From positions 1 through 31,135 of IMG/VR virus record IMGVR_UViG_3300032249_001209: a stretch of DNA of 31,135 bases. One strand, written 5' to 3'. The position numbers were made by a program, and so were the translations under genes. Numbering within the stretch: position 1 is the stretch's first letter; each line of letters starts with the position of its first letter. The notes beneath the pieces are model-generated. The model saw only the letters and a program-made list of their open reading frames with translations, did no database searches and was not told the origin of the DNA. The DNA is from a virus. Shown here one piece after another: positions 543 to 20,403 of this stretch.

Positions 543-559
543 CACGATCTCCTCGTCCG

Positions 560-589: not shown

Positions 590-618
590 CGGTCGACCTC
601 TACACAGGAGAGCGACCC

Positions 619-3108
619 GTGAGCACTCCCGACCTCTCCCGGTGGACCCGGCGCGGCTCGCTCGTCGAGCGCGACGACGGCGCACGCGAGCACGTCCTCG
701 TTGGCCGGCACCGTTTCGCGACCCACGCGAGCCTCTCCTCCCGCTCCTCCGCGTTGGCCACGGATGCCTCCTCCGCGCCTCGTGTCGAGGGGCGGGCGGT
801 TCCGGAGGGCGCGCTCGTCGTCGAGGGCGTGGCCTCCTCGACCTCGGTGGACAGCTACGGAACGGAGATGAGCCTCGACGCGCTCCGTCGCATGGCGGAG
901 CAGATGGAGCGCGGTCTCCCGCTGCTCCCGCGCCACAACAACGGGATGCGCGCGGTCGAGTGGGACGAGGTCATCGGGCGGACCGTGGGCGCGAAGGTCG
1001 AGGCGGCCTCCGTCGCGGCTCCCGGCGGAGCCAACGAGCCCGGCTACTCCCTCTCGCTCGTCTCGATGCTCTACCCGGACGAGCCGCTCGCGATGACGCT
1101 GGTGCGGCGCCTCGAACGCATGGAGCCGATCGGGCAGTCCATCGGCGGGTGGTTCCTCTCCGTGCGTGTCGTCGAGCGCGGAGGAGAGGTCGAGCGCATC
1201 ATCGTCGAGGAGATCGAACTCGATCACGTCGCGGTCACCCGCGCTCCGGCGAACCCGGACGCGGTCGGGATGGTCTCGCTCCGCTCCTCCCTGGCGGCCT
1301 CGCTCGCGGCTCTCCCGGAGCAGCAGCGCAACGGCGACCACGGAGACGAGGGCGGCTCCGGGACCGTCGAGGTGAAGGTGGTCGTCGAGGCAGACGAGCA
1401 GGAGGAGGAGCCGGACACGGAGGAGGCGCTCGTCGTCGAGGGCGCGGCGTGCCCGGCGGCGACCGGCTCCGCGAGCGTCAACCTCGCCAACCGGGCGAAG
1501 GCGATCGAGGTCGCGAACTACGGCCCGGCGAACCCGGAGGAGCCGGGCGACTACTGGAAGGCGAAGGCGGAGCGTCTCGGAGGCGAGACGACGGAGGAGC
1601 AGGCGGGCCGGATGCGCTGCTCCAACTGCTCCTACTTCAACGTCTCCGCGCGGCTCAAGGCCTGCATCGCGGCCGGGATCGGAGACGACGGGGCGCAGAT
1701 TGTCGAGAACGCAGGTCTCGGTTTCTGTGAGGCGTTCGACTTCAAGTGCGCGGGCGCGCGGACGTGCGACGGGTGGGTCGTGGGCGGCCCGATGGTCGAG
1801 GAGGCTCCCTCGGAGGAGCAGGCGGCGGCCCGTCGCCTCGCCTCCGGCTCCGCGCGCGCCAACCCGGCGGAGGTCCGCGAGGGAGACTTCGTGCGCTTCC
1901 TGGCGCCCGATGGGGTCGAGGCGGGGCAGATCAAGGCCCGCGCGGTCGAGGGTGACCTCGACGGCGTGCAGGCGAGCGAGGAAGACCCGGCTCTCCGGGT
2001 CGAGGTCTACGACCGCGAGGGGGACGGCTACGTCCCCTCCGGGCGCACCAAGGCGGTGCTCGCCTCGAAGGTCGAGCGCATCGACCCGCTCCCGCTCCCG
2101 TCGACGAGCGCGGTCGTCGACGTCGCTTACTTCGACCAGCGCGCCACCGTGCCGTTCTCTGACTTCCCCCCGGCTCCGCGCGATGAGCCGTGGGTGTGGG
2201 GCGCGGACGAGCAGAACGCCGTGCTCGGAGACCCTCCGGAGTGGGACCGCTACGAGAGCGCCCACCTCTACGTTGACCCGGAGCAGCGGGAGACGAAGGC
2301 GGGCTACAAGCTCCCGGTCGCGGCGCTCTACGACGGCTCTCTCCGGGTCTTCTACCGCGCGGTCGTGGCCGCGATGGCGGTCCTCAACGGGGCGCGTGGC
2401 GGGATCGAGGTCTCGGACGCGGACCGGCGCGGGATCTACGAGAACCTCGTCCGCTACTACCGGGTGTTCGACGAGGAGGCGCCTCCCCTGGCGGAGCGCG
2501 TCGCGGAGGAGGAGGGGCGCTCCGGTGGTCGGGCGCCTCGTCTCGTCCGGGTCGAGCGCGCGGGGGGCCTTGACGTGACGGGCGGAACGGTACACGATAC
2601 GCTCAACCATGCGGCCGGATCTCCGGACGGCATCGAAGCCCGCGCAGGCTCGGACCTCCTCTCCACCCTCCCTCACGAGGACAACATGAGCGACAACGAC
2701 GTCAAGAAGATGATCGAGCGGGCGGTGGCGGAGGCTCTCGCCTCGCGCGGCGCTCCCGCTCCGGAGCCGGTCGACGAGACCACCCGGCTGAAGGGTGAGG
2801 TCGCGCACCTGCGCTCGATGGTCGATCGGCTGGCCGCGGCGCCGGTGCGGCGTGGGCTCGCCTACCAGACCGGCGAGGTGACCGGCGGCAAGGTCCACGG
2901 CCGCTCCGCGCTGCACGACCTCGTCGAGCGTTCGCGCGCCTCGTCTCCGGGTCTGGCGCAGGTCATCGAGGCGACCCTCCCGGCGCTCGTCGGCGACAAG
3001 GCGGAGCGCGCCACCGCCTCCGAACTGCACTCCGTCCTCGCCACCGCGCTCCGCGCGGCGGAGGCGGAGGGGCTCCTCGGCAACCCCGCACCGGCTCACT
3101 GGGCCTGA
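619..3108 (+). CDS. Prohead protease polyprotein (protease + Cys-rich module + C-terminal scaffold-like domain)
   Basis: The start is GTG at 619, 8 bases after ACAGGAG (604-610); the frame stays open upstream but overlaps the minor head gene with no ribosome site. The product is 829 residues, far longer than a simple prohead protease (about 200). Residues 60-220 look like an XkdF/HK97-type prohead serine protease: His106 in LLPRHNNG, Ser174 in GQSIGG, and the closing strand LDHVAVTRAPANPDA around 201-215. Residues 334-383 carry six cysteines (334, 337, 349, 370, 377, 383) in the CSNC...FKC...RTC pattern seen in some phage protease/capsid fusions. Residues 417-495 form a small beta-type segment. 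Residues 524-622 hold a conserved phage segment around the motif YKLPVA. The last 140 residues are charged and helical, as in scaffolds. The expected role is to cleave scaffold and capsid N-termini during prohead maturation. The protease call is good; boundaries between modules are approximate. Confidence 0.8.
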   Translation: MSTPDLSRWTRRGSLVERDDGAREHVLVGRHRFATHASLSSRSSALATDASSAPRVEGRAVPEGALVVEGVASSTSVDSYGTEMSLDALRRMAEQMERGLPLLPRHNNGMRAVEWDEVIGRTVGAKVEAASVAAPGGANEPGYSLSLVSMLYPDEPLAMTLVRRLERMEPIGQSIGGWFLSVRVVERGGEVERIIVEEIELDHVAVTRAPANPDAVGMVSLRSSLAASLAALPEQQRNGDHGDEGGSGTVEVKVVVEADEQEEEPDTEEALVVEGAACPAATGSASVNLANRAKAIEVANYGPANPEEPGDYWKAKAERLGGETTEEQAGRMRCSNCSYFNVSARLKACIAAGIGDDGAQIVENAGLGFCEAFDFKCAGARTCDGWVVGGPMVEEAPSEEQAAARRLASGSARANPAEVREGDFVRFLAPDGVEAGQIKARAVEGDLDGVQASEEDPALRVEVYDREGDGYVPSGRTKAVLASKVERIDPLPLPSTSAVVDVAYFDQRATVPFSDFPPAPRDEPWVWGADEQNAVLGDPPEWDRYESAHLYVDPEQRETKAGYKLPVAALYDGSLRVFYRAVVAAMAVLNGARGGIEVSDADRRGIYENLVRYYRVFDEEAPPLAERVAEEEGRSGGRAPRLVRVERAGGLDVTGGTVHDTLNHAAGSPDGIEARAGSDLLSTLPHEDNMSDNDVKKMIERAVAEALASRGAPAPEPVDETTRLKGEVAHLRSMVDRLAAAPVRRGLAYQTGEVTGGKVHGRSALHDLVERSRASSPGLAQVIEATLPALVGDKAERATASELHSVLATALRAAEAEGLLGNPAPAHWA
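2686..3108 (+). CDS. Candidate nested scaffold protein from an internal start in the protease gene
   Basis: An ATG at 2686 is in frame with the protease gene and sits 5 bases after GAGG (2677-2680), a believable internal ribosome site. It would give a separate 140-residue protein, equal to residues 690-829 of the long product. The segment begins with a helical, charged stretch (MSDNDVKKMIERAVAEAL), then a Pro/Ala linker, a heptad-like stretch around LKGEVAHLRSMVDRLA, and a helical C-terminus. This matches the known lambda C/Nu3 arrangement, where the scaffold is the C-terminal part of the protease gene made from its own start. Here it is inferred from the start context and composition; no sequence match to a scaffold family is visible to me. 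Confidence 0.5.
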   Translation: MSDNDVKKMIERAVAEALASRGAPAPEPVDETTRLKGEVAHLRSMVDRLAAAPVRRGLAYQTGEVTGGKVHGRSALHDLVERSRASSPGLAQVIEATLPALVGDKAERATASELHSVLATALRAAEAEGLLGNPAPAHWA

Positions 3109-3126: not shown

Positions 3127-4134
3127 ATGCCCATCAACCCGAACAACACTGCTTCCTGGCTCGGTGTCGCGGATCCGGCTCGACGCGAGGCGTTCGAGCG
3201 TGCGGTCAACGTGTCGACCGCGGGCGGCGTGCTCATCCAGACCTACATCAACCGCGTCGTCCAGATGCTCACGCTCCGCGAGTTCGGCCTCCAAGCCGTC
3301 CTTGACCGGACGCCGGGGCAGGGCGACAAGGCCTACATCAACCGTCGCGCGGCGGGCTCGACCGGCGGCGCGTGGGTCGCGGACACCGACGGTGTGACGG
3401 AGGAGACCGGCACCTACTCGCAGGTGTCGTTTGCCTACCGGACCCTGGCGACGCGCGGGCGCGTGACCCGCAAGTTGCAAGCGATCGGCCGCTCCTACGG
3501 GGACGCGCTCGCGCAGGAGATCACCGCCAAGGCGGAGGACTTCGCGGACACCCTTGAAGCCGGCTGCATCACGGGCGACAGCGGGGCGAACGCGAACCAG
3601 ATCAACGGTCTGCTTACGCTCGTCAACGCTGTTGGCACCGACGTCGTCTCGAACATCACGACCGCCTCCGGCGGCGGCGCGCTCACGCTGGCCCGGCTGG
3701 ACGAGGCGATCGACAAGGTCAAGGGGTCCGCCAACCGCTCGGACCTCGTGATCGTCGGCTCGTTCGCGGGGCTCCGGGGCGTCAACTCCGCCTTGCAGGC
3801 GCAGCAGCAGTTCGTGAACGAGGTCGAGATCAAGGGTGGCTTCCGGGTCAAAAGCTACGACGGCATCCCGCTCGTCGTCTCGACCCGGATGCCGGACACG
3901 ATCGCGGCCGGCGCGACCGGCGGGATCATCACCTCGTTCACGAGCGGCACCTCGACGGCGATCGCGGTCATCAACAAGCGGTACGTCAAGATCGAGGAGT
4001 TGACCCCCACGACCGTGATGCCGCTCGCGAAGACCGACTCGCAGTTCGACCAGTTCGACATGTTTTGGGACGGCGCGCTCGTCCTGCACAACACCAGGGG
4101 CGCGGCGCTGCTCACGGGCATCCGCACCACCTGA
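3127..4134 (+). CDS. Major capsid protein (HK97 fold)
   Basis: ATG at 3127 follows GGAGG (3114-3118). The product is 335 residues, a usual size for an HK97-fold capsid subunit. Visible family features are the N-terminal helix and arm, a long beta/extended-loop region around residues 55-110 (GDKAYINRRA, then the GTYSQVSF strand), and a helix (EITAKAEDFADTLE) leading to the segment CITGDSGANANQINGLL near residues 147-163. This last segment matches the G-x-G...P/N-x-G-L-L element of phage capsid families. A segment with acidic helix and beta strands follows (KGGFRVKSYDGIPLVVSTRMP). No separate decoration gene is seen next to it. Position right after the protease/scaffold gene and before the connector genes supports the call. 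It is followed by a strong hairpin, consistent with very high expression. Confidence 0.85.
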   Translation: MPINPNNTASWLGVADPARREAFERAVNVSTAGGVLIQTYINRVVQMLTLREFGLQAVLDRTPGQGDKAYINRRAAGSTGGAWVADTDGVTEETGTYSQVSFAYRTLATRGRVTRKLQAIGRSYGDALAQEITAKAEDFADTLEAGCITGDSGANANQINGLLTLVNAVGTDVVSNITTASGGGALTLARLDEAIDKVKGSANRSDLVIVGSFAGLRGVNSALQAQQQFVNEVEIKGGFRVKSYDGIPLVVSTRMPDTIAAGATGGIITSFTSGTSTAIAVINKRYVKIEELTPTTVMPLAKTDSQFDQFDMFWDGALVLHNTRGAALLTGIRTT

Positions 4135-4630: not shown

Positions 4631-5200
4631 GTGGCGCTCGCGACGACCTCGACCGTCCGGGCGCTGCTCGGCATCCCGGCGGCGGTTACCTCGTGCGACG
4701 TTGCGCTCGCGGCGGTTGTCGCGGCGGCGGACGCGCTCGTGCTCGACGAGATCGACCTCCCCACGGAGGCGGTCGCGACCTACAACGAGACGCTCGACGT
4801 CGAGTGGGAAGGCTCGACGGATGTGCTGCTCCGCTACCGGCCGGTCGTCTCCGTCGCGGCGCTCACCGTCTCCGGCACCGCCTACGCGGCGTCGTCGTTC
4901 TACGCGACGGAGAGCGGCTCGCTCCGCCTCACGGAGATCGGGGCGACCTTCCCGGCGGGGCGGCAGCGGGTGCAGGTCTGCTACAGGGCGGGGATCGCTT
5001 CCGGCTCGAAGGACGCGGCGAACCTCGGCTATGTCGCGAACCTGATCGCGGTCGCGATGTTCAACCAGTCCGGGCACGCTGGCTTCACCGGAGAGCGGAC
5101 GGGGGCCTATTCCTACACGCAGGACGGGCGCCCGATCCCTCCCCTGGCGGAGCGGCTCCTCGGCCGCTACCGGCGCCCGTTTGCACGCGGGCGCTACTGA
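4631..5200 (+). CDS. Head-tail adaptor (gp6 / gp15-like connector)
   Basis: GTG at 4631 lies three bases after the previous stop. The product is 189 residues. It starts with an Ala-rich helical region (residues 5-40), as in HK97 gp6 and SPP1 gp15 adaptors. Then comes a beta domain with the typical motif LRYRPVVSVAALTVSG (near 75-90), a strand pair SGSLRLTE and VQVCYRAG (near 95-120), and a C-terminal helical part (YVANLIAVAMFNQ) with a basic tail. Proteins of this family form the ring below the portal and join it to the stopper. Gene order (portal side, capsid, adaptor) agrees. The motif match is by eye, but the RYRPV...V-x-Y-x-A-G pattern is characteristic. Confidence 0.75.
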   Translation: MALATTSTVRALLGIPAAVTSCDVALAAVVAAADALVLDEIDLPTEAVATYNETLDVEWEGSTDVLLRYRPVVSVAALTVSGTAYAASSFYATESGSLRLTEIGATFPAGRQRVQVCYRAGIASGSKDAANLGYVANLIAVAMFNQSGHAGFTGERTGAYSYTQDGRPIPPLAERLLGRYRRPFARGRY

Positions 5201-5212
5201 CCGGAGGTAGCG

Positions 5213-5470
5213 ATGGGTGGGTTCAAGTTGCGCAGGCTGGCGCGAGACGGAGAGCGGGAGACCTTCCACGGCCCGGAGGAGGCGGCTCTCGTCGTCGTCG
5301 AGGCGGGGTGGGCTGTCCTCCGTTGCGACCGCGAGACCACCGCGCGGGCGGCGCGACGGCGTGGGTTCGAGGACGTGCCGGAGCAGGTCTCGGAGCAGGT
5401 CTCGGAGCAGGTCTCGGAGGAGGCTTTGGACCCTGCTCCGGTCGGGCCTCCGTCGCGGCGGAAGCGTTGA
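5213..5470 (+). CDS. Small protein with a C-terminal EQVS tandem repeat
   Basis: ATG at 5213 follows GGAGGT (5203-5208), a strong ribosome site. The product is 85 residues. The first 60 residues are compact, with aromatic and beta-type patches (GGFKLRRLARDGERETFHG, then VVVEAGWAVLRC). The tail holds three perfect EQVS repeats followed by a Pro-rich, basic end (PPSRRKR). I recognise no family, although short phage proteins with a similar 'F-x-G-PEEAAL...GW' core occur in connector regions. It lies between the adaptor gene and the epimerase gene and is likely part of the same transcript. Confidence 0.65.
   Translation: MGGFKLRRLARDGERETFHGPEEAALVVVEAGWAVLRCDRETTARAARRRGFEDVPEQVSEQVSEQVSEEALDPAPVGPPSRRKR
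5381..5416 (+). repeat. Three tandem copies of a 12-base unit
   Basis: The unit GAGCAGGTCTCG is repeated three times without a mismatch, followed by a further GAG. It lies inside a coding frame and encodes EQVS three times. Perfect identity at the DNA level suggests recent expansion by slippage. Confidence 0.9.
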
Positions 5471-5495
5471 CGGCTACAACGCGCCGGAGGTGCCT

Positions 5496-6656
5496 GTGAA
5501 CGTCCTCGTGACCGGCGGAGCCGGGTTCATCGGATCGCACGTCGTCGACCTGCTCCTCGACCGGGGCGACCGGGTCGTGGTCATCGACAATCTCGACCCG
5601 CAAGTCCACGGGGCGTCCGCCTCGTGGCCGGAGTGGACGCGCGCGGCCCGGCGGCGCGGCGCGGCGCTCTACCAGATCGATCTCCCGGACGCGGACCGGG
5701 TCGCTCGCGTGCTCGACGAGGAGCAGGTCGAGGCGGTCATCCACCTCGCGGCGCGGGTCGGGGTGGGGCAGTCCGCCTACGAGATCGCCTCCTACACGGA
5801 GACGAACGCCACCGGCACCGCCTCCCTGCTCGACGAGGTCGCCAAGCGTCGGAAGCAGATCCGGCGCGTCCTCGTGGCCGGCTCCATGAGTTGCTACGGG
5901 GAGGGGCCGGTCCTCACCGCGCACGGTCCGGTTCCGGGTTGGGACCGCTCGGAGGCGGACCTCGCGCGTGGGGTCTGGCGCCTCCGGGACATCCACGACC
6001 TCCGCTCCGGCGACGACGGCGGGCATCCGTGGGCCTTGTCCGTCGCGTGCTCGGAGGAGATCCCTCTCCGCTGCACCAGCGTCTACGCGGAGACCAAGCG
6101 CGTCCAAGAGGAGTTGACGCGGATCGTCTGCTCGACCTACGGGATCTCGTGGGCTGTGATGCGGTTCTTCAACGTCTACGGCCCGCGTCAAGCTCTCGCC
6201 AACCCATACACGGGCGTCGCGGCGATCTTCTCCGCGCGGATCCGGTCCGGGCTCGCTCCGCTCGTCTTCGAGGACGGAGAGCAGGCTCGCGACTTCGTCT
6301 ACGTCGAGGACGTTGCACGCGCGGTCCTCGCGCTGCTCGATCGGCCGGAGGCGGTCGGGGCGTTCAATGTCGGCACGGGGTGCCCCACGCCGATCTCGGG
6401 GATCGCGCTCGCCTTGGGGCGCGTCCTCGAACGTCCGGACTTGGGCGTCGAGGTCACCGGCCGCTACCGGGCTGGCGACGTGCGCACCTGCTTCGCGGGC
6501 GTCCGGCGGATCCACGAGGCGACGGGATGGCAGGCGGAGGTCGGGCTCGACGATGGGCTCGCGCGCCTCGCACGGTGGGTCGCGGAGCAGGCGGGCGTGG
6601 TCGACCGGACGGAGCAAGCTCTCGGAGAGCTTGACGCGCGCGGGCTCGTCCGATGA
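5496..6656 (+). CDS. NAD-dependent nucleotide-sugar epimerase (extended SDR, dTDP-rhamnose 4-epimerase-like)
   Basis: GTG at 5496 follows GGAGGT (5486-5491). The product is 386 residues, slightly longer than the 320-350 usual for GalE-like enzymes. The N-terminus has the Rossmann motif VTGGAGFIGSH (residues 5-15), and DNLDPQVHG follows. The active site is complete: Ser130 in GSMSCYGEG and Tyr197-x3-Lys201 in SVYAETK. The motifs VGVGQSAYEI, RFFNVYGPRQALANPYTG and EDGEQARDFVYVEDVA are those of the dTDP-L-rhamnose 4-epimerase subgroup as I know it. An insert of about 60 residues separates the Ser and Tyr motifs. The likely reaction is C4 epimerisation of an activated sugar with bound NAD in the cytoplasm; the true substrate cannot be read from sequence. 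It lies amid neck genes, overlaps the SGNH-like gene by ATGA, and is followed 2 kb later by a glycosyltransferase gene that could use its product. Confidence 0.88.
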   Translation: MNVLVTGGAGFIGSHVVDLLLDRGDRVVVIDNLDPQVHGASASWPEWTRAARRRGAALYQIDLPDADRVARVLDEEQVEAVIHLAARVGVGQSAYEIASYTETNATGTASLLDEVAKRRKQIRRVLVAGSMSCYGEGPVLTAHGPVPGWDRSEADLARGVWRLRDIHDLRSGDDGGHPWALSVACSEEIPLRCTSVYAETKRVQEELTRIVCSTYGISWAVMRFFNVYGPRQALANPYTGVAAIFSARIRSGLAPLVFEDGEQARDFVYVEDVARAVLALLDRPEAVGAFNVGTGCPTPISGIALALGRVLERPDLGVEVTGRYRAGDVRTCFAGVRRIHEATGWQAEVGLDDGLARLARWVAEQAGVVDRTEQALGELDARGLVR

Positions 6657-7297
6657 GCGCAGACCTCGCGGACCTCGCGGACCTCGTCGTCCTCGTGGGC
6701 GACCACGCGATCCGGGCGCCTCGCGCGATGACCTCTCCGCTCGTGCGGCTCGCGGTCGCGCTCAACGCGGAGCGTCCGGCGCTCGTTGGGGCCGGCGTGG
6801 TCGTCGACGACCTCTCCGGCCCGGCGGGCTCGCGCGAGGTCGTCCGGGCGGCGATCGGGGCGCTCGTCCGGCGCGGGCCGGTCGCCTCGCGCTACGGGCG
6901 GGCGGTCCTCGTCGTCTCGCTCTCCGTGGGCGACCTGCGCTCCGGAGGGCTGCACCCGCAAGACTGGCACGCTCAAGTGGTCGCGCTGATCCGGACCGCG
7001 CGCGCTCTCGGCCACGCGGTCGCGCTGCTCCACGTCGCCTACCCGGAGGGAGAGGCGAACAAGGACGCGCGGCGGTGGTCGCGACGTCTCGGACCGGAGA
7101 TCGCGCGGCTTGCGGCGGAGGAGCGCCTCCACGGGGTGGTGCAGGTCGAGGCGCGCGGCTGGCCGGATCCCCTCGACCCTGGCGACGCCGGGGCGGAGAC
7201 GATCGTGCACGGCATCCTCCGCTTGCTCGACGGGTCTCCGCCGCGCGAGGCGGAGCCGGGGCCGCAGGTTACGGTGCGTCCTCGGAGGTCTGCATGA
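6653..7297 (+). CDS. SGNH-hydrolase-like protein lacking the catalytic Ser and His (weak match)
   Basis: ATG at 6653 overlaps the epimerase stop by ATGA, so the two are probably translated together. The product is 214 residues. The order of elements follows SGNH/GDSL hydrolases. There is a first strand ending in VVLVGDH (residues 12-18) where GDS is expected, a strand LVVSLSVGDLRSG (87-98) at the place of the G-x-N-D block, and WPDPLDPGDAG (170-180) where D-x-x-H-P...A-G is usual. On this alignment the nucleophile Ser is His18, the block III Asn is Gly93, and the last catalytic His is Asp175, leaving an apparently inactive fold. Such hydrolases often remove or transfer acyl groups on glycans, which would suit the neighbouring sugar genes. 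The fold call is tentative. Confidence 0.45.
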   Translation: MSADLADLADLVVLVGDHAIRAPRAMTSPLVRLAVALNAERPALVGAGVVVDDLSGPAGSREVVRAAIGALVRRGPVASRYGRAVLVVSLSVGDLRSGGLHPQDWHAQVVALIRTARALGHAVALLHVAYPEGEANKDARRWSRRLGPEIARLAAEERLHGVVQVEARGWPDPLDPGDAGAETIVHGILRLLDGSPPREAEPGPQVTVRPRRSA

Positions 7298-7944
7298 TCC
7301 GCCGCACAGTTGTCGGCTTCGCGCGCGACGAGCAGGCTCCGGAGGTCGAGGAGCACCTCCTCGACGCGGACCTCGTCGTCTTCGGCTCCGGGCGTGGGGC
7401 AGGGCGGGGGCGGTGGGCGTCTGCTCTCGCGCTCCGGCTCTCCTCCGGCGGCGACGCGGCGCTCCTCTCGCACCGCGCGGACGGGCTCGCGCTCGTCGCG
7501 GGCGTGGACGACGAGGCGACGCTCGAAGCGGCGCTCGCCATGCCGGACCCGTGCGTCGTCGTCGTGCTCGCGGAGGAGCGCGGGACGGTCCGCGCGGGGC
7601 TGAATGGTCGCGACGACGAGTGGCGGTTCCTGCTCCTCGACCTTGCGAGTTCGGTCGTCGGGAAGGCCACCCTCATTCCGGCGAAGCTGGGGCCGCACGA
7701 GGTCGTCGAGGTCTCGCTCCACACGGTCACCCCGTTTCCTGGCGCCACCGTCGAGCCGGCGGCGGAGCCGGAGTGCGACCTCCTCTCGGAGCCTCCTCCG
7801 GAGATCGTCGTCCCTCCGGAGATCCTGCTCGCGGACGCGGGCACACCGGAGCTTGTCCTCCCCTCCGTGGCGGGCAACGAGGACGAGCCCGTGCCCGTCG
7901 ACGAGGTCGAGGAGACCCTCGACGGAGAGGAGCAGGCGACGTGA
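7294..7944 (+). CDS. Protein of unknown function in the neck/sugar cassette
   Basis: ATG at 7294 overlaps the previous stop by ATGA and follows GGAGGT (7284-7289). The product is 216 residues. Residues 1-160 look like an alpha/beta domain with alternating strands (MIRRTVVGFA, DADLVVFGSG, PCVVVVLAEE, WRFLLLDLASSVVGKATL). The C-terminal 55 residues are acidic and Pro-rich (PPPEIVVPPEILLA... and a final Glu/Asp-rich stretch), so probably disordered. I do not recognise a family. It is translationally linked to the SGNH-like gene before it and, by GTGA, to the probable stopper gene after it. Confidence 0.7.
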   Translation: MIRRTVVGFARDEQAPEVEEHLLDADLVVFGSGRGAGRGRWASALALRLSSGGDAALLSHRADGLALVAGVDDEATLEAALAMPDPCVVVVLAEERGTVRAGLNGRDDEWRFLLLDLASSVVGKATLIPAKLGPHEVVEVSLHTVTPFPGATVEPAAEPECDLLSEPPPEIVVPPEILLADAGTPELVLPSVAGNEDEPVPVDEVEETLDGEEQAT

Positions 7945-8567
7945 TCTCCGGAGTGCTCGATCGGCGCGTCTCGCTCTACCGGCGGACCCCCTTCGTCGTC
8001 GACCGGGCTCCGGCTGGCGCGACGTTGACGGTCGCACGCCAACCGGTCCGCGAGAGCGTCCTCCTCGCGCGCGTGTCCGGGGGCACCTCGAACACCGGAA
8101 CCGTCACCGTCTCCGGCAACGTCTCCGGCGCTCCCGCGAGCGAGACCCTCTCGTTCTCCGGTGCAGGCGTCCGGCAGACGGTGCGGCGCTTCTCCTCCGT
8201 CTCCGGGGTGACGACCTCCGGCCTCGCGGACGAGGCGACGATCCCCTCGATCTCCATCGAGGCGCTCTCCCCTGGCGGGGAGCAACAGTTCGCGGTCGCG
8301 CTGCTCGTCTCCGGGTACCCGGCGACCTTCTCCCGGCTCCGCGCTCGTTGGAGCGGGGCGATCCACGGCGTCGAGACCGTGGGCGCCTCGACGCTGCTCC
8401 TCCCCTACGGGGAGACGTTCGAGCCGCTCCCGAACGACGTCCTCGTCGACGAGACCACGGGCGACGAGTACCTCGTCCGTGACGTTGACCTCCTCCGTGC
8501 AGGCGGGCGGGTGTGCCGTCCCTCGCATTGGGAAGCCTCCGTCGAGAGGCGCGACAAGTCCACCTGA
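7941..8567 (+). CDS. Probable head-tail stopper / neck structural protein
   Basis: GTG at 7941 overlaps the previous stop by GTGA. The product is 208 residues, rich in beta strands, Ser, Thr and Gly. The N-terminus (SGVLDRRVSLYRR) resembles the start of head-closure proteins. The C-terminal third has the pattern of SPP1 gp16-like stoppers, where a strand 'gD.l...tG..Y.V..V' precedes a His-containing end: PNDVLVDETTGDEYLVRDVD (about residues 164-183), then RPSHWEASVERRD. The middle carries an extra beta segment (TGTVTVSGNVSGAP, then SFSGAG), making it longer than gp16 (about 110 residues). Stoppers seal the head after packaging and bind the tail. Gene order between the adaptor and the tail terminator supports this, but the family match is weak. 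Confidence 0.5.
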   Translation: MISGVLDRRVSLYRRTPFVVDRAPAGATLTVARQPVRESVLLARVSGGTSNTGTVTVSGNVSGAPASETLSFSGAGVRQTVRRFSSVSGVTTSGLADEATIPSISIEALSPGGEQQFAVALLVSGYPATFSRLRARWSGAIHGVETVGASTLLLPYGETFEPLPNDVLVDETTGDEYLVRDVDLLRAGGRVCRPSHWEASVERRDKST

Positions 8568-8604: not shown

Positions 8605-11493
8605 ATGATGAGCCCGGACACCCCTTGTTGGAGCGCGAGCGACCCCATCCCGGAGAATGACCGCTACGCGGCGCTGATCGTGATCCCCACGGTCGCCACC
8701 CCCTCCGTCCTGCTCCCCACCCTCGACCGCCTCGTCGAGTGCGTCGACGGAGAGCGCGTCTGGATCGTCGTCTCCGTGAACCCGAAGGACGCGCACAACG
8801 CACAGCGCGTCCTGGCGCACGTCGGCGCTCTCCCTCTCCCGGAGAACGTCCGGCTCGACGTCCACGTCGAGCGCGGCCTCCGGGGCTTCGGAGGAGCGGC
8901 GAACATCGGGGTCCGGTACGCGCTGGCGACCGGCGGCCTCCCTCCCGTCGTGATCGTGTTCAACGACGATCTCGTCCCTGTGCCGGGGTGGCTCTCCGGC
9001 ATCCTGGCGGCGTTCCAGACGGAGGAGGTCTGCTACCCAGCGGAGAACCCGGACGAGAACGGGCGGCGGCCTCGTCGCAAAGTCACCGGCTACGGGCGGA
9101 TCGGCCTCGTCGGACCGGTCGGCAACAACGTGGCTGGCTTCCAACAGGTCGCGACGCCGGAGGAGGTCGCGCGGCTGGGCTACGAGCGCCTCGCGCGGCG
9201 GCAGCGGGAGCAGCACGGCGGCGAGGTCTGGACGGCGGAGTTCGTCTCCGGCTTCTGCATGGCGATCTCTCGCGAGTGTCTCCTCGACGTCGCCCACGTC
9301 GAGGGCGACGAGTGGCACGGACCGTTTGACGCGGACCGCTACCCGGTCGCGGGCTACGAGGACAACGACCTGTGCGCCCGCGTCGACCGGCGGGGCTGGC
9401 GGGCGGCGGTCGCGTTCGGAGCCTTCATCGGTCACCTCGGACACCAGACGTTCGACGGGCTGTTCCCGGATTGGCTCCGGGGGATGAAGAACCGCCTCGC
9501 GTACTACCGGAAGTGGCGGGGCTGGACCTCGCGGGCGAAGCGGATCGGGGCGGTCTACCGGGTCCGGCTGGCGGCGCCCAACGACCTGCACCTGTGGCTC
9601 GCCTCCCTGGCGCGCGCGGCTGAACTGCTCGACGGCGCCGCGATCCTGCTCACGGGCAACCCGTTGGAGATCGTCGAGCACCCCTCGTGGGCGGCCGTCG
9701 CGGCGCGCTTCGCTCCGCGCGAGCAGGGGATGCTTCGAGCCTGCTCCGGGGCGAACTTTGACGAGGTCGCGGCGGCGGTCTGCGCGTGGGTCTCGGAGAT
9801 CGCGGGAGAGGTCCGGACGAAGCTCGGCATCCCTGGGGAGTTCGAGGTGTCCGTCCGCGGGTGGGGTGGTCCCTGGAACGAGCGCGAGGAGCGGAATGCA
9901 GCGATCCGGCTCGCGGAGCGCGGCGGCTACGATTGGCTTCTCTCCATCGACCACGACGAGATCGTCGAGGAGCGCGTCTCCCGCTCCCTGCTCGACCGGT
10001 GGCTCGCGCACCCGGACCCGCTCGTCGAGAGCTTCGAGGTCGCGTGGGTCAATCACTGGGAGAACGACCGGATGGTCCGGGTTGATCGCCCGTGGGGCGA
10101 CGGCGGCGCCTACCGGGGCGGGATGATGGGGCCTCGTCTGTGGCGGGTCAACCACCGCGCGCCGAAGCGGGTCACGGCAGGGACGGGGATCGGCCTGCAT
10201 TGCGGCAACTCTCCGCTCGTCGTCCCTCCGGCGCGGAAGGTCGCCTCCCTCCGGTTCCGGCACTACGGGTACATCGACCGGGGGCAGCGGGCGCGCAAGT
10301 TCGCGTTCTACTCGGAGATCGACCCGTCTCCGGACGCGCTCCTCGTCGGAGGCGAGACCTACGGCCACATCGTCGCGGACGAGGGGATGGTCCTCCGTCC
10401 GTGGGTCGGGCGGAACGGGATCGGGCTCTCGATGCTGCTCCACGCAGGCGAGGCGATCGAGGACGTCGGGCGGTGGTTCGACGACCTCTTCACGGTCGTT
10501 GACGCGATCGTCCTCGTCTGGACGGACGAGTGGCGCGAGGAGGATCGCGGGTGGGTCGGCACCGACCCGGACGCGGTCGAGGTCTGGCCGGAGACCGGTC
10601 CCTCGCGCGACCTCGCCTACCTCGCGTGGGTCTTCGAGGCGGAGTGGACCGCCCATCGGCTCGACGACGATCTCGCGGCGGCGCGCAACGCAGGCTTCGA
10701 CGTCCTCCGCGCCCACCCGGCGCGTCTCGGATGGGGTCTGTTCGTCGACCCGGACGAGTGGACGACGGACTACCACGCGGTCGTGCGCGGCCTCCGGAGC
10801 ATGGCGGAGACGTCGGACGGGTGGGGTTGGCTGTTTCGGTTCTCGAACGTCCTCCGGGGCTCCGCGCGTCCAGCCTACTCGGAGAGCGTCCGGCTGTTCC
10901 GCCTCGACGACGAGGGCGTGATGCGTCTCTCCGGGCGCGTCCACGAGGGCTTCGACGTTGCGGTCGAGCAGATCCGCGCGCGGGGGCAGCACCCGAACTT
11001 CCGGTACGCGGCGTTCTCGCTCATGCACGGCGGCCTCGCGAAGCCGGACGGGGCGCTCCACGAGAAGCTGCTCCGCTACCGGCGGAGCCTGCTCCGGGCG
11101 CTCGACGAGGAGCCGTTCCTCCCTGGCGCTTGGACCGCGCTCGGTTTGCAGTTCCTCAACGACGGAGAGGTCGAGCAGGCTCGCGAGTGCTTCGAGCGCG
11201 GGATCCTGTGCGCGGGGACGTCCTACCTCCCGTTCAACGAGGCGGCGAAGCTCCACCTCCGCCTCGCGGCGGCGCTGCTCTCGCGGGTCGTCGACCTGAC
11301 CGTGCCCCATCACCCGGCGCACAGGTCCGCTCGCGAACTCGTCGACCTGCTCCGCGAGGCGGCTCCGCCGCTCCCGGTCGTGGGCTCCGGGCGGCTCCCT
11401 CCCGTCGACCTCCCGGCGTTCCCCGTGGAGCGCCTCCTCGGCACCCAGGAGGAGCCCGTCCTCGACGGGCTGCTCCCGGACGAGACGGCGTGA
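8605..11493 (+). CDS. Multi-domain glycosyltransferase with three GT-A-like segments and TPR-like C-terminus
   Basis: ATG at 8605 follows GGAG (8594-8597); a second ATG at 8608 is equally usable. The product is 962 residues. Residues 20-300 look like a family 2 glycosyltransferase: opening strand ALIVIPTV, acidic metal/nucleotide motif NDD (120-122), acceptor-side motif FVSGFCMAISRE, and the catalytic-base-type motif YEDNDL (E252, D253). Residues 410-650 carry a second GT-like segment with WLLSIDHDEIVEE (D449-H-D451). Residues 680-840 carry a third with GLFVDPDEWTTD (D715-P-D717-E). Residues 840-880 (WTALGLQFLNDGEVEQARECFERGI) look like a TPR unit. Such enzymes move sugars from nucleotide donors to protein or glycan acceptors in the cytoplasm. 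The gene lies between the stopper and gp10-like neck genes and near an epimerase that could supply donor sugar. The first domain is clear; the second and third are inferred from acidic motifs and spacing. Confidence 0.8.
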   Translation: MMSPDTPCWSASDPIPENDRYAALIVIPTVATPSVLLPTLDRLVECVDGERVWIVVSVNPKDAHNAQRVLAHVGALPLPENVRLDVHVERGLRGFGGAANIGVRYALATGGLPPVVIVFNDDLVPVPGWLSGILAAFQTEEVCYPAENPDENGRRPRRKVTGYGRIGLVGPVGNNVAGFQQVATPEEVARLGYERLARRQREQHGGEVWTAEFVSGFCMAISRECLLDVAHVEGDEWHGPFDADRYPVAGYEDNDLCARVDRRGWRAAVAFGAFIGHLGHQTFDGLFPDWLRGMKNRLAYYRKWRGWTSRAKRIGAVYRVRLAAPNDLHLWLASLARAAELLDGAAILLTGNPLEIVEHPSWAAVAARFAPREQGMLRACSGANFDEVAAAVCAWVSEIAGEVRTKLGIPGEFEVSVRGWGGPWNEREERNAAIRLAERGGYDWLLSIDHDEIVEERVSRSLLDRWLAHPDPLVESFEVAWVNHWENDRMVRVDRPWGDGGAYRGGMMGPRLWRVNHRAPKRVTAGTGIGLHCGNSPLVVPPARKVASLRFRHYGYIDRGQRARKFAFYSEIDPSPDALLVGGETYGHIVADEGMVLRPWVGRNGIGLSMLLHAGEAIEDVGRWFDDLFTVVDAIVLVWTDEWREEDRGWVGTDPDAVEVWPETGPSRDLAYLAWVFEAEWTAHRLDDDLAAARNAGFDVLRAHPARLGWGLFVDPDEWTTDYHAVVRGLRSMAETSDGWGWLFRFSNVLRGSARPAYSESVRLFRLDDEGVMRLSGRVHEGFDVAVEQIRARGQHPNFRYAAFSLMHGGLAKPDGALHEKLLRYRRSLLRALDEEPFLPGAWTALGLQFLNDGEVEQARECFERGILCAGTSYLPFNEAAKLHLRLAAALLSRVVDLTVPHHPAHRSARELVDLLREAAPPLPVVGSGRLPPVDLPAFPVERLLGTQEEPVLDGLLPDETA

Positions 11494-11534: not shown

Positions 11535-12077
11535 GTGGTCCGGATCGAGGTTGGGAACATCAGAACGCTGATCTACTCGATGAACCAGCGTTATGTCTCG
11601 TTCTCGCGGGCGCTCGACCGGTGCGTCGAGGCGGCGGGGGAGGTCATGCTCACGGAGATCCGGGCGACCGCCTCCCGCCGCGAGCACTCCCTCGACGACC
11701 TCGCGAAGAAGGACCACCCCTACGCTCGACGGCACGGCGCGATCCGGGCCGGCGTGCTCGGAGGAGCCTTCGTCCAGCGTCCCTACCTCGTGCATGTCCA
11801 ATCCGGCGCGCTGCTCCGCTCGATCCGGGGCAGCTTCGCGCGTCCTGGCGGCCTCCCGGTCTACGCGGTCGGGACGGACCACCCGCACGCGGCGGCGGTG
11901 ATCGACGGGTCGCGGCACGTCCTCCGGCGCGACTTCCTCGTGGACACGATGAACGAGCGGGGGGTGCAGCGCGAGATCCTCCGCGCGATGGTGCGCGTCC
12001 TCGGACAAGAACTCCGCACGCAGGCGACGATCCGGGGCGTGAAGCACGCCGTCGCTCCGTCGCAAACGGAGGCGTGA
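11535..12077 (+). CDS. Neck / tail-completion protein (HK97 gp10-like)
   Basis: GTG at 11535 follows GGAGG (11526-11530). The product is 180 residues. The N-terminal half is helical (RALDRCVEAAGEVMLTEIRAT). It is followed by a segment with G-x-L-L-R-S-I (near residues 95-101), a strand LPVYAVGTDHPHAAAVIDGS, and a C-terminal helix pair (REILRAMVRVLGQEL). This is the usual order for HK97 gp10-like proteins: helix, 'tG.L..SI', then 'v.....YA..vE.G'. These proteins sit at the head-tail interface. The next gene, a tail terminator, starts one base after this stop, which is the standard order in siphoviruses. Confidence 0.65.
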   Translation: MVRIEVGNIRTLIYSMNQRYVSFSRALDRCVEAAGEVMLTEIRATASRREHSLDDLAKKDHPYARRHGAIRAGVLGGAFVQRPYLVHVQSGALLRSIRGSFARPGGLPVYAVGTDHPHAAAVIDGSRHVLRRDFLVDTMNERGVQREILRAMVRVLGQELRTQATIRGVKHAVAPSQTEA

Positions 12078-12078
12078 C

Positions 12079-12492
12079 GTGGCGAACTCCGTCTCCGACC
12101 TGCTCCAATCCGTCCGCGCGATGCTGCTCGCGGACCCGGCGGTCGAAGCTCTCGTCGAGGACCGGATCCGGACCGCGCACGCGGCGGGCTACGAAGGCGC
12201 CGCTCCGACGATGCCGCTCGTGATCGTCGCTCCGCTCGGAGGCTCGATGCCCTACTCCGGGGCGTTGCAGGTCGTGAGCCTGGAAGTCTACGCCTACTCC
12301 AAGACCTCGGAGGGGGAGGCGCTCTCCGTCTACGAGGCGGTCCACCGCGCGTTGCAGGCGGAGCGCGTCGCGGTCGACGGGCTCAACCTCCGGGGGATGC
12401 TCCGCGAGACCACCCGGCCTCGCCACGGCTACAATGACGCGCTGCTCGCCTACTACACGCGCTCCCTGTGGACCGCGACCACCGCCCGGTGA
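12079..12492 (+). CDS. Tail terminator / tail completion protein (gp17-like, DUF3168-like)
   Basis: GTG at 12079 lies one base after the previous stop. The product is 137 residues, the normal size for lambda gpU / SPP1 gp17-type terminators. The N-terminus is a helix with the pattern L-L-A-D-P-A-V-x-A-L-V-x-D-R-I (residues 16-30), typical of this group. Then come strands with MPLVIVAPLGG and LQVVSLEVYAYS, a helix (ALSVYEAVHRAL) and closing strands (LLAYYTRSLWT). The protein caps the tail tube at the head-proximal end and fixes tail length. The place between the neck gene and the tube gene is as expected, apart from two zinc-ribbon genes inserted after it. Confidence 0.7.
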   Translation: MANSVSDLLQSVRAMLLADPAVEALVEDRIRTAHAAGYEGAAPTMPLVIVAPLGGSMPYSGALQVVSLEVYAYSKTSEGEALSVYEAVHRALQAERVAVDGLNLRGMLRETTRPRHGYNDALLAYYTRSLWTATTAR

Positions 12493-15453: not shown

Positions 15454-18400
15454 GTGAGCACGACCATCGGTGACTTCGTCGTCCGCCTCGTCATGCAGGA
15501 CGAGGACTTCGACGAGGGCGCGCGCAACGCGAAGCGCACCCTCGACGGGCTCGGGCGCTCTCTCTCCGGCTTCGCGGACCTGCTCGGAGGGCTGTTCGTC
15601 ACGGCGGTTGGCGCGGCGACGGCGGCGATGGGGGCCTTCGCGGCCTCGTCCGTCGAGGTCGGCTCCGGCTTCGAGGCGAGCATCACGAAGGTGGGCGTCC
15701 TGGCGGGCGGGGTGGACGGCGCGGCGGCGGCGATCGACGCGCTCGGGGAGGAGGCGCGGAGGCTCGGGGCCACGACCGCCTACTCCGGGCAACAGGCGGC
15801 GGACGCGATGCAGACGCTCGCCTCCGCCGGTCTGAAAACGAACGAGATCATCGCGGCGACGAACTCCGCTCTACTCCTCGCTGGCGCCTCCGGGTCGACG
15901 CTCGACGACGCGACCTCGATCCTCGTCTCGACGATGTCGCAGTTCGGGCTTGCGGCCACCGACGCCGGGCGGATCTCCGACGTCTTCGCGCAGGCGATGA
16001 ACGTGTCCACGCTGGACATGACCTCGCTCACGGAGGCGATGAAGTACGCCGGAACCATCGGGCGGTCGTTCGGCTACAGCTTGGAGCAGACCACCGCGGC
16101 GGTCGCGCTGTTCCGCGACCTCGGCCTCGAAGGCTCGAAGGCCGGCACCGCCTTCCGCAACGCGCTCGCGCAGGCAACGACCGTCTCCACGAAGGGGGAA
16201 CAGGCGCTCGCTCGCTACGGGCTCACGGTCGCGGATATCAACCCTGAAACGCAGAACTTCGCGGAGTTGATGACCCGGCTCGGCCACGCCAACATGACGA
16301 CCACCGACCTGATCGCGGTGTTCGGACAGGAGGCGGCGGGCTCGATCGCGGTCCTCTCGCGCGGCTTCGCAGACGGGACGACCAAGTTTGATGAGTACCT
16401 GACCTCGTTCGAGCAGGCGGGCGGCACGACCGCCTCCGTCTACGCGGCGATGACGGACACGGTCGAGGGGCGCGTCGCACAGGTCTCCTCCGCGCTCGAA
16501 GAACTGCAACTCGTCCTCTTCGACACTTACGGCCCGCCGCTCCGCGACCTGCTCGACGAGGTCGCCTCGCTCGTCGGCTACGTCGCGGCCTCCTTCTCGC
16601 GCGCCTCCGGCGAGATCGGCTCCGGCTTCGCGGAGCAGGTCCGGAGCCTCGTCTCCTACCTGCAACAGAACCGGCAGGCGATCGCGCTCGGCTTTCAACA
16701 ACTCGTCGCCTCGACGGTCGCGCTCGGAGAGGCGCTCGTCCGGATCGTGCCGATCCTCGACGACCTGCTCGTCCTGATGGGCGCGGTCTTCCTGGCGAAC
16801 CGCGTCCGGATCTTCGTCTCCGCGATCGTGCAGGCGACGGGAGCGATCTCCACGCTCGGAGGCGGGCTCCGCGCGCTCTACGCGGCGGTCGTGGCGATGA
16901 GCGGCGGCACCCTGGCGCTCGTCGCGGCGATCGGCACTCTCGTCGTCGCGATCGGCGCCTACGTCATCGCGCAGAACAGCGCGGAGGCGGCGGCGGAGCG
17001 TCTCCGGGCGGCGGAGGAGCGCCTCGCGGCGGAGCGGGCGGAGCGCGAGAAGGTCGAGATCGCGAACGCGAACGAACTCGCGGCGGCACAGGCGCGTCGG
17101 CTCGGAGCGTTCGGGCTGGAACTGCAACAGCGCGGGCAGCTTACGAACGCGATCGACGGCCAACTCTCCGCGCTCGCGGGGCTCTCGGACGAGCAGATCC
17201 GCGCGGGTCTGGCGGAGGGACGGCTGTTCGAGGCGACCATCGCGGGGGAGCGGGTCGTCCTGGACAACGCGACCGCGCTCGAACTCGCGACCTCCGGCGC
17301 ACAGGGCTACGAGGACGCGCTCGCGGGCCTGGAAGCGGCACAGCGTCGCAACATCGGAGAGCAGCGGGCGGCGGAGACCTCGCTCGCGCGGCTCGACGAG
17401 GCGCTCGCGCGCTACGAGGCGACGACCTCCAACGGGATGAGCGGGACCGCTGCGTTCCGGGTCTACCTCGAACGCTACGGAGCGACGGTCGAGGAGGTCG
17501 AAGCGCGCCAACGCGCCTTGCGGGAGGAGGTAGCGGCGACGACCTCGCGCGTCGAGGTCTTCGCGAACGAGGCGCTCCTCGCGGAGCAGGCGCTCACCAA
17601 GAAGGCGATCGCCTCCGGCGCGGCGGCAACCGGCATCCAGGCGGAGGGAGAGGAGACCGGCAAGGCGACGAAGGCGGCGGAGGACTACGCCTCGAAGCTC
17701 CGGAGCGCGACGGAGGCACGGATCGCGCTCTCCCGCCGCGTGGCGGAGGAGGCGCTCCGCGCGTCCGGCGACGAGACGGCGGTGATCCTGGCGGACCTCG
17801 CGCGGCGCGAGGAGGAGGTCCGGCGGGTCTACGAGGCGGAGATCGCGCTCGTCCGCCGCAAGGCGGCGGAGGTCGTCCGGCTCAACCGCGCGATGGAAGC
17901 GGACCTCGCCTCGATCCGTGCGACCGCGCAGGCGAAGCAGCGCACGGAGACGGAGCGCCTCGTCGCGGCGGTCGAGCAGGAGTTGCGGTCCCTCCGCCTC
18001 ACCGACGAGCAGGAGGAGCAGGTCGCGACGGACGATCGGCTCGACGCGCTCGCGGAGGCGTTCACGAGGGAGGCGGCGCTCTACGAGGAGGGCTCGGAGG
18101 GGCGCCTCGCGGTGAACCGTCGCTTCCTGGCGGCGCTGGCGCTCGTCGAGGCGACGGAGGCGGAGAAGCGCCGTGCGGCACAGGTCGCGGCGGAGCGGGA
18201 GGGCGTGCGCGTCCTCGCGGGTCTCTACGCGGAGCAGACGGGGCGGATCGCGCGGTTCGAGGCGGAGCGCGCGCGGATCCTCGACGAGATCGCGGGCGCG
18301 TCCGCCGACACGCGCGCGCTCATCGAGGCGGAGTATGGGCGCCGCGTGCAGGCTGAGCGGGAGCGGATCTCCGACGAGGTCCGCGTCCTGACCGGGCGCG

Positions 18401-20403
18401 AGACGGACGAGATCGCGGCGCTCGAAGACCGCGCGGCATCGAGCCGCTCCGCGAGGCAGCGCGACCGGCTCCGCGAGCAGGCGGAGACGCTCCGCCGCAT
18501 TGACGCGCTGGAACGCGAGCGGGCCGCGAAGCTCGTGGACTACGCGGACGCGAGCGAGGAGGAGCGGGCCTCGATCGTCGAGACCTACTCCCGGCAGATC
18601 GAGGACGTCCAACGGGAGAGCGACGAGCGCACGCGCGAGCGGACCGTCGAGACGATCGAGCAGATCCGGCGCGCGGCCGTCGCGGTCGTCTCGGAGGTCG
18701 CTCGCGCGGCCGGCGCGGCCGTGGGCGCGGTCGTCTCCGGTCTCGGAGACCTCTTCGCCTCGTTGACCGGGGGCCTCGACCTCTCCCTCACGAGCGTGAC
18801 CTCCTCGGTGCTCGACGAGGTCGCGGCGGAGCGCGAGGCGCTCGCGGCGCAGTTGAAGGAGGGAGCGATCTCTCCGGAGCAGTACGAGGCGGGCCTCGCG
18901 GCGCTCGACCCCACGCAGGCGGCGCGCGACTTCGTCTCCGGCCTGCTCGCGGAAGCGTCGACGTTCGCGGCGACGCTGGCGGCGGCGGCTCCGGGGTTCA
19001 TCGAGGCGCTCGTCGAGGGGATCCCCTCGCTCGTGGACGGGCTCGTCGCGGCGATCCCGGCGGTCGTCGAGGCGCTCGCCTCCGGGCTCCCGGCGCTCGT
19101 CGACGTGCTCGTCGACGCGATCCCGCGCTTCGTCGCGGCCGTGGTCGAGGCGCTCCCGGTCCTCGTCGACGCGCTGGTGACGCTGCTCGTCGAAGGTCTC
19201 CCGGCGCTGCTCGCACAGTTGGGGCCGATCGTCGAGGCGCTCGTCGAGGCGCTCGTCGAGGCGGTGCCGGTCGTCGTGCAGGCGATCGCGGACGCGCTCC
19301 CCTCGGTGGTGGCCTTCGTCGTCGATGCGGTCGAGGCGCTCCTCGCGGCACTCCCGGAGATCATCTCCGGCATCCTGGCGGCGCTCCCCTCGATCCTCAC
19401 GACCCTGCTCGCGGGGGTGGGCGACCTCGTCGTCGCGGTCCTCGACGCGATCCCCTCGATCGTCGGCGCGATCGTCGACAACCTCCCGGCGATCCTGATG
19501 GCGCTCCTCCGCGGGGTGCTCGACATCGTTGTGCAGGTCGTCGCGGCGCTCCCGTCGCTCGTCGCGGGCATCGTGGACCTGCTCCCCACGCTCATCCCGG
19601 CTCTACTGCTCCTCGTCGTCGACCTCATCGTCGCGGTGCTCGACGCGATCCCTCAAATCATCGAGGGCTTCCTCCTCGCGCTCCCGCGGCTGATCACCTC
19701 TGTGATCCGGGCCATCCCGGCGATCATCCTGGGTATCGTCGACGCGCTCCCGCGGCTGCTCACCGCGCTCGTCGTCGGCATCGTCTCGCTGGTGCCGGAG
19801 ATCATCGTCGCGGTCGTGAAGGCGCTCCCGGCGATCGTCATCGCGTTGGTCGAGGGGTTGATCGAGGCGGTGCCCGCGCTGCTCCGCGCGATCTTCATCG
19901 ACCTGCCGATGATGCTCGGGCAGGCGATCGTCACAGCGATCCGCGAGGGGCTCGCGACGCTGGGGCGCTTCTTCAAGGACGTCTTCCGGGAGATCGTTAC
20001 GCTCGGGAAGGCAGACACGGCGACCTTCGGAGACACGCCGGGGCCGGTGCGGGCCGGCGGCGACGGACTGCTCGCCTCGTTCGCTCCCGGCGACTACGTC
20101 GTCGCGGCACAGCGTCCGGTGGACGTCCTCCGGCAAGCTCTCGCGGCCACGGGCGCAGACCTCTCCGGGGTCTTCGGCGGCGGAGAGCCTCCTCCGGCTT
20201 CGCCTCCGGTCGTCGTTGGCGGAGCCGGGGCGGCGGCTCCGATCGACATTGCGATCATGGCGGAGGGGCGGCTCCTCGACGCGGTGCAGGTCACCGCGCT
20301 CGATCGAGGTCACGCCCCGCGCCTCGACCAACGGCTCCGCCGCGCCTCCGGCGTGCGGGTCGGCGTGGACCGGGGCCGCTTCAACCCCTACTCGTCGACC
20401 TGA
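15454..20403 (+). CDS. Tape measure protein (TP901 family)
   Basis: GTG at 15454 follows GGAGG (15442-15446). The product is 1649 residues. At the known scale of about 0.15 nm per residue this predicts a tail near 250 nm, long for a siphovirus. Residues 1-350 hold the conserved N-terminal domain of TP901-type tape measures, with F-E-A-S-I-T-K-V (near 75), ATTAYSGQQAADAMQTLASAG and the SLTEAMKYAGTIGRSFG region. Hydrophobic stretches near residues 48-68 and 450-510 may be membrane-active. Residues 520-1110 are mostly charged coiled coil, rich in Glu, Arg and Ala. Residues 1180-1490 are an unusual run of 11-residue hydrophobic repeats ending in [IL]P. The C-terminus (after 1500) is Gly/Pro-rich, as expected for the part near the tip, and ends in a small domain. 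The protein sets tail length and is ejected ahead of the DNA. Confidence 0.9.
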   Translation: MSTTIGDFVVRLVMQDEDFDEGARNAKRTLDGLGRSLSGFADLLGGLFVTAVGAATAAMGAFAASSVEVGSGFEASITKVGVLAGGVDGAAAAIDALGEEARRLGATTAYSGQQAADAMQTLASAGLKTNEIIAATNSALLLAGASGSTLDDATSILVSTMSQFGLAATDAGRISDVFAQAMNVSTLDMTSLTEAMKYAGTIGRSFGYSLEQTTAAVALFRDLGLEGSKAGTAFRNALAQATTVSTKGEQALARYGLTVADINPETQNFAELMTRLGHANMTTTDLIAVFGQEAAGSIAVLSRGFADGTTKFDEYLTSFEQAGGTTASVYAAMTDTVEGRVAQVSSALEELQLVLFDTYGPPLRDLLDEVASLVGYVAASFSRASGEIGSGFAEQVRSLVSYLQQNRQAIALGFQQLVASTVALGEALVRIVPILDDLLVLMGAVFLANRVRIFVSAIVQATGAISTLGGGLRALYAAVVAMSGGTLALVAAIGTLVVAIGAYVIAQNSAEAAAERLRAAEERLAAERAEREKVEIANANELAAAQARRLGAFGLELQQRGQLTNAIDGQLSALAGLSDEQIRAGLAEGRLFEATIAGERVVLDNATALELATSGAQGYEDALAGLEAAQRRNIGEQRAAETSLARLDEALARYEATTSNGMSGTAAFRVYLERYGATVEEVEARQRALREEVAATTSRVEVFANEALLAEQALTKKAIASGAAATGIQAEGEETGKATKAAEDYASKLRSATEARIALSRRVAEEALRASGDETAVILADLARREEEVRRVYEAEIALVRRKAAEVVRLNRAMEADLASIRATAQAKQRTETERLVAAVEQELRSLRLTDEQEEQVATDDRLDALAEAFTREAALYEEGSEGRLAVNRRFLAALALVEATEAEKRRAAQVAAEREGVRVLAGLYAEQTGRIARFEAERARILDEIAGASADTRALIEAEYGRRVQAERERISDEVRVLTGRETDEIAALEDRAASSRSARQRDRLREQAETLRRIDALERERAAKLVDYADASEEERASIVETYSRQIEDVQRESDERTRERTVETIEQIRRAAVAVVSEVARAAGAAVGAVVSGLGDLFASLTGGLDLSLTSVTSSVLDEVAAEREALAAQLKEGAISPEQYEAGLAALDPTQAARDFVSGLLAEASTFAATLAAAAPGFIEALVEGIPSLVDGLVAAIPAVVEALASGLPALVDVLVDAIPRFVAAVVEALPVLVDALVTLLVEGLPALLAQLGPIVEALVEALVEAVPVVVQAIADALPSVVAFVVDAVEALLAALPEIISGILAALPSILTTLLAGVGDLVVAVLDAIPSIVGAIVDNLPAILMALLRGVLDIVVQVVAALPSLVAGIVDLLPTLIPALLLLVVDLIVAVLDAIPQIIEGFLLALPRLITSVIRAIPAIILGIVDALPRLLTALVVGIVSLVPEIIVAVVKALPAIVIALVEGLIEAVPALLRAIFIDLPMMLGQAIVTAIREGLATLGRFFKDVFREIVTLGKADTATFGDTPGPVRAGGDGLLASFAPGDYVVAAQRPVDVLRQALAATGADLSGVFGGGEPPPASPPVVVGGAGAAAPIDIAIMAEGRLLDAVQVTALDRGHAPRLDQRLRRASGVRVGVDRGRFNPYSST
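18990..19910 (+). repeat. Hydrophobic 11-residue repeats in the tape measure
   Basis: Over 300 residues (about 1180-1490 of the protein) the motif A-[IL]-P or G-[IL]-P recurs, often at exactly 11 residues: GIPSLVDGLVA, AIPAVVEALAS, GLPALVDVLVD, AIPRFVAAVVE, ALPVLVDALV and so on. I count more than 20 such prolines, with a few units stretched to 15-18 residues. At the DNA level the copies have diverged, so the repeat is old. Confidence 0.85.

Follow-up and report, generated by a model that had tools for sequence, protein, structure and literature searches.

A virus contig of 31,135 bases, analysed over its full length and referred to below as the window, encodes among its neck genes a 962-residue protein that, judged by sequence comparison and predicted structure, is built from three successive GT-A glycosyltransferase domains and a TPR-like helical array (Table 1). 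With moderate confidence, we regard it as a soluble protein glycosyltransferase, which would place a first sugar onto a virion protein and then extend it to a short glycan. Only a small number of phages are known to have glycosylated virions, and each glycosyltransferase proposed for them has a gene of its own. The present enzyme unites three domains, is of the type that glycosylates polypeptides, and keeps a fixed position within the neck genes in homologous loci whose GC content ranges from 31 to 72%. If our reading is true, a large set of uncultured phages would share particle glycosylation as a core trait, which would bear on how they adsorb, are recognised and assemble; the enzyme would then represent a compact tool for building a protein glycan without lipid carriers.

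Table 1. Features of the window discussed in the text, with the evidence for each assignment.
Feature	Position	Strand	Basis
ORF, open at its 5' end	1-3108	+	upstream of capsid gene
HK97-type major capsid protein	3127..4134	+	phrog_212, 3.8e-20
Head-tail adaptor	4631..5200	+	phrog_442, 2.5e-17
NAD-dependent nucleotide-sugar epimerase/dehydratase	5490..6656	+	PF01370, 8.2e-52; phrog_540, 4.9e-55; GTG start at 5490 by inspection
GDSL-like acylhydrolase	6653..7297	+	weak here; 3e-7 in relative L033
Neck-operon gene without PHROG match	7294..7944	+	PHROG search
Head-closure (stopper)-like gene	7941..8567	+	position; weak match in relative L047
Three-domain glycosyltransferase with C-terminal TPR array, 962 aa	8605..11493	+	open frame, motifs, homologue alignment, model
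Segment 1, GT2-type GT-A domain (residues 19-313)	8659..9543	+	PF13641, 9.5e-14; Z about 17-18 to GT-A enzymes
Segment 2, SunS/ThuS-like GT-A domain (residues 314-602), DHDE 449-452	9544..10410	+	AF2 model alone, structure matches, invariant residues
Segment 3, GmaR/SunS/ThuS-like GT-A domain (residues 603-814), DPDE 715-718, VHE 779-781	10411..11046	+	profile matches, invariant residues
TPR-like helical array (residues 815-935)	11047..11409	+	helices in model; TPR matches in relatives
Neck1/HK97-gp10-like protein	11535..12077	+	phrog_5, 5.8e-7
gp17-like tail completion protein	12079..12492	+	PF11367, 4.2e-8
Tape measure gene	15454-20403	+	farther downstream of the gp17-like gene

That the frame is a real gene follows from its coding composition (GC of 0.72/0.53/0.89 at the three codon positions), and homologues at 22-53% identity in other virus contigs argue against a chance frame; the closest homologue pair gives a crude dN/dS of about 0.2. 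The motifs that the original prediction had read from the 962-residue frame all lie where it had placed them in the protein (NDD 120-122, YEDNDL 251-256, DHDE 449-452, DPDE 715-718). A membrane segment was sought in the full-length model (pLDDT 90.5, pTM 0.88) and none was found, the hydrophobic stretch at residues 22-40 forming strand 1 and helix 1 of the first domain; according to the model, the protein is soluble.

Segment 1 scores above the Pfam cut-offs of PF13641 (52.4 versus 27 bits) and PF00535 (31.5 versus 23.3 bits). The equivalent of its DxD motif is provided by NDD together with EDND (residues 252-255), and D255, N100, Q180 and R259 are kept in 21/21 homologues, D122 in 20/21; altered motifs occur in segment 1 of L018 and L023. 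By hhalign, segment 1 is weakly similar to segments 2 and 3, which match each other with a probability of 97 and an E-value of 1e-10. Taken alone, neither segment 2 nor segment 3 of the window protein reaches a glycosyltransferase family of Pfam; segment 3 of three homologues (L047, L050 and L052) does. Because the structure alignment with the full-length model mainly probes residues 19-624, the absence of a family from its matches being uninformative there, segment 2 was folded separately. The resulting AF2 model (pLDDT 93.9) matches ThuS best (Z 14.7, 200 residues aligned, rmsd 3.6), followed by SunS (Z 14.2) and the next family at 12.1. Segment 3 together with the TPR array finds the profiles of GmaR (5e-27), SunS (1.2e-21) and ThuS (1.2e-18), and its comparison with the ThuS structure yields a Z of 17.4 over 263 aligned residues (rmsd 3.2, model range 497-905). 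The best solved matches of the full-length model are K4 chondroitin polymerase (K4CP), which has two GT-A domains, SunS, ThuS and polypeptide GalNAc transferases. GT-A folds are thus found for residues 410-650 and 680-840, the stretches on which the original prediction of three glycosyltransferase-like segments had made itself depend. It had also proposed a terminal TPR-like unit: the TPR match is weak in the window protein alone (E 0.04) and clear in relatives (E 5e-10), and in the full-length model about 120 residues of TPR-like helices end the protein, with a helical array at 815-919 that is followed by a disordered tail.

Distant homologues (L047, L050, L058) display a GT2 motif set in every segment: DNGS..NND..EDND in segment 1, a DDGS- or DTGS-type motif..NExxxxR..DWIISIDGDE in segment 2, and DTGS..ARN..DPDE..VHE, then TPR, in segment 3. 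In these proteins, the nucleotide-binding DxS motif of strand 2 is retained, whereas members of the window's clade no longer have it in segment 2 or segment 3, where LLTGNP and VWTDE replace DTGS. This loss suggests that donor binding in the two segments is altered or weakened, which lowers the certainty about donor use and not about the fold; the family assignment rests on segment 1. It could also be taken to mean that not every domain still transfers sugar: one or two, in the window's clade most likely segments 2 and 3, would be scaffolds or holders, perhaps components of the virion or of its assembly, and segment 1 alone would be active. In line with this, segment 2 of the clade is about 60 residues longer than that of distant homologues. 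We consider this unlikely in view of the residues that are conserved: D443, W444, D449, D451, E455, R492 and D494, DxD included, are invariant in 23/23 sequences and are the only residues for which this holds, all of them in segment 2, while D715, D717, E718, H780 and E781 of segment 3 are invariant in the 21/21 homologues covering them. Moreover, two homologues of about 600 residues (L020:15553-17406 and L021:8508-10319) drop segment 1 yet retain segments 2 and 3. In the tree, whose deep branches are weakly supported, both are nested among three-domain members; their segment 1 has probably been lost, a derived state, which would make the complete domain set sometimes dispensable. With the putative metal-site acids invariant in segments 2 and 3 and nearly so in segment 1, all three domains are probably active, donor use by segments 2 and 3 being uncertain.

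The gene is, as originally predicted, embedded between the stopper and a neck protein: the closure-like gene precedes it, and the gp10- and gp17-like genes follow. The gene in the same position of L047 matches phrog_1531, head closure, with an E-value of 0.005. Several genes of the neck operon overlap by four bases, as expected for a single transcript. ORF 7604-8482 was rejected as the upstream gene, since its frame is not that of the real genes at 7294-7944 and 7941-8567. The open frame at 1-3108 gave no match in Pfam and PHROG searches; it is conserved in close relatives and may encode a portal, a protease or a fusion.

As a single query, the window protein finds nothing close in GenBank phages, viral contigs or PHROGs, and one 30% match in a Syntrophaceae MAG. 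Relatives were obtained via a search with the capsid protein, which led to 28 viral contigs, and those reaching far enough carry the three-domain gene at the same place. Alignment A1 of those homologues, used as a profile, retrieved 49 loci, and alignment A2 comprises the window protein and 22 distinct proteins that are homologous over two or three segments; the distinct homologues in IMG/VR amount to about two dozen. A 2125-residue ORF with several glycosyltransferase-like segments in a Syntrophaceae MAG (L002:524-6898) is matched by the window protein as well as by the profile. A search for the same architecture in other phage neck operons, which had been suggested along with the original prediction, was successful: gp10-like and/or gp17-like genes follow in 19/19 homologous loci with downstream sequence, and a head-tail adaptor also lies upstream in 16 of those 19. 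The adaptor is undetected within the available flank of L040, L054, L055 and L056. The gene is present in every capsid relative of at least 48% identity whose contig spans the neck, in some of them behind a long insert; in two distant capsid relatives of about 30% identity (L029, L030), the genes proceed from adaptor to tape measure without it. Elsewhere in the latter genome, which lacks the neck gene, a single-domain glycosyltransferase similar to segment 3 is encoded (record G013, 54039-54494). With two distant homologues as queries, none of the matches listed from GenBank phages covers more than 34% (none 80%), nor was an isolate of this clade found among these phages; the matches listed from the plasmid search are exclusively segment-1-like GT2 genes.

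Further sugar-related genes accompany the enzyme in relatives, where the operon interval holds a methyltransferase (L035), a GT4 and a radical SAM gene (L055) or a polysaccharide-type epimerase (L056). In L055, the radical SAM/SPASM gene (4946-5887) lies near the GT4 gene, just upstream of the three-domain gene. On the contig of L010, 14.8 kb separate the head-tail adaptor from the three-domain gene (L091:580-15350); with its RmlD-type gene, two methyltransferase genes, a GDSL acylhydrolase gene and a further GT2 gene, this interval resembles a glycan-modification island set into the neck operon.

In the scheme that we infer from position and homology for each domain's catalytic activity, the donor sugars, the order of addition and the virion-protein acceptor, the enzyme would probably be made late, together with the neck genes. 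Its TPR array (residues 815-919) would hold a virion protein, segment 3 as a GmaR/SunS/ThuS-type domain would put the first sugar on a side chain, and more sugars would be added by segment 2, a member of that subgroup, and by segment 1, whose domain is of the general GT2 kind; the operon's epimerase and GDSL-like acylhydrolase may make or trim these sugars. SunS glycosylates a bacteriocin peptide. GmaR transfers GlcNAc to flagellin (PMC9638930), the TPR part of FlmG, a GT-B flagellin glycosyltransferase, binds the protein substrate (PMC7591256), and in mycobacteriophages capsid and tail-tube proteins are known to bear glycans (Freeman et al. 2023, as cited in PMC12619734). A virion protein is the likeliest acceptor because of the polypeptide-modifying relatives of segment 3, the TPR analogy and the neck-operon position, the last of which is by itself no proof of the acceptor. 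Action on a virion protein had already been part of the original prediction and is supported as the likeliest role by the homology of segment 3 to protein and peptide glycosyltransferases, while the accompanying term "processive" had to be given up: nothing indicates a polymerase, and three differing domains better suit a short glycan built stepwise. It would then be probable that many uncultured tailed phages equip their own virions with a short chain of sugars. Only tentatively do we go further and propose a self-contained machine for protein O-/S-glycosylation, with initiation and two extension steps on one chain and the TPR array as substrate holder, whose core gene would be the hallmark of a widely distributed clade of uncultured tailed phages; in these, glycosylation of a connector or tail protein would be built into virion assembly.

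The resemblance of segment 1 to the polysaccharide-type GT2 enzymes K4CP, WrtF and TarS in the structure matches, together with the sugar genes nearby, would also fit an enzyme that acts late in infection on LPS, capsule or teichoic acid of the host surface and not on the virion, thereby excluding other phages or freeing progeny, and pelagiphage glycosyltransferases have been interpreted in this way (PMC7029224). Such a role appears improbable to us: no flippase or membrane partner is recognised nearby, the model is that of a soluble protein, segment 3 groups with polypeptide glycosyltransferases, and about two dozen lineages keep the gene at its place within the neck operon, whereas the pelagiphage enzymes are found in variable islands (PMC7029224). 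Glycosylation of the phage DNA, that is, of hypermodified bases as by glycosyltransferases of T4-type and related phages, might be invoked since viruses encode a diverse range of DNA-decorating glycosyltransferases (Pyle et al. 2024, as cited in PMC12619734); with no base-modification gene recognised in the adjoining sequence, a location among neck genes in homologous loci, and closest solved relatives that act on polypeptides or polysaccharides, we deem it very improbable.

Compared with known systems, the proposed virion-protein glycosyltransferase would work like GmaR or SunS with two more glycosyltransferase domains in front. SunS and ThuS (PDB 7msn, 7msp and 7msk; TIGR04195), whose fold segment 2 matches best, consist of a GT-A domain and TPR helices and can be aligned over their whole length with segment 3 and the TPR array, the family layout of a GT-A domain directly followed by TPR helices being present in the window protein. 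They possess one glycosyltransferase domain and a bacteriocin-peptide acceptor as opposed to the three domains found here. SunS is, by the title of PDB 7msp, a glycocin S-glycosyltransferase. It is phage-borne (SPbeta), and SunS and ThuS are not known as genes of structural operons. At a cut-off of 350 bits for the SunS equivalog TIGR04195, the best homologue (L047) scores 95.4 bits and the window protein, which is not a SunS equivalog, gives no match. GmaR of Listeria monocytogenes (PDB 22ao), the best glycosyltransferase profile match of segment 3, likewise joins glycosyltransferase and TPR; it has one such domain and a long antirepressor part that the window protein lacks, with about 460 residues beyond the glycosyltransferase domain (PMC9638930).

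Two tandem GT-A domains per chain are found in K4CP and in Pasteurella heparosan synthase 2 (PmHS2), which polymerise a two-sugar repeat and have no TPR. K4CP is the top Foldseek match, with an alignment across two domains (628 columns, E 1.6e-11) and a poor superposition (rmsd about 13 Å, TM 0.2-0.3), so that the domain arrangement may differ. In mycobacteriophage virion glycosylation of the Che8 type, phage-encoded glycosyltransferases are thought to decorate capsid and tail-tube proteins (cited in PMC12619734 and PMC11256854); these are separate genes, near the 3' end of the genome in Maravista (PMC11256854), in contrast to one three-domain neck protein. Gtr-type serotype conversion relies on a cassette of membrane glycosyltransferase and flippase, whereas the window offers a soluble model and neck and sugar genes as neighbours. 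The best viral fold match is A0A6J5LLV3 of an uncultured member of the Caudovirales (E 1.5e-24, 850 columns, 16% identity), which is longer (1443 residues) and annotated only as a GT-A-type domain protein. Since multi-glycosyltransferase proteins of uncultured phages and giant viruses are present in structure databases, several such domains per viral protein are already known; the combination of a polypeptide-type domain, extra glycosyltransferases and a fixed place in the neck operon was not found described in the open-access literature.

For the tape measure gene, the top-listed named relative is Methanosarcinales virus vir515 (34.6% identity at 23% coverage), a match from which the host may be non-bacterial.
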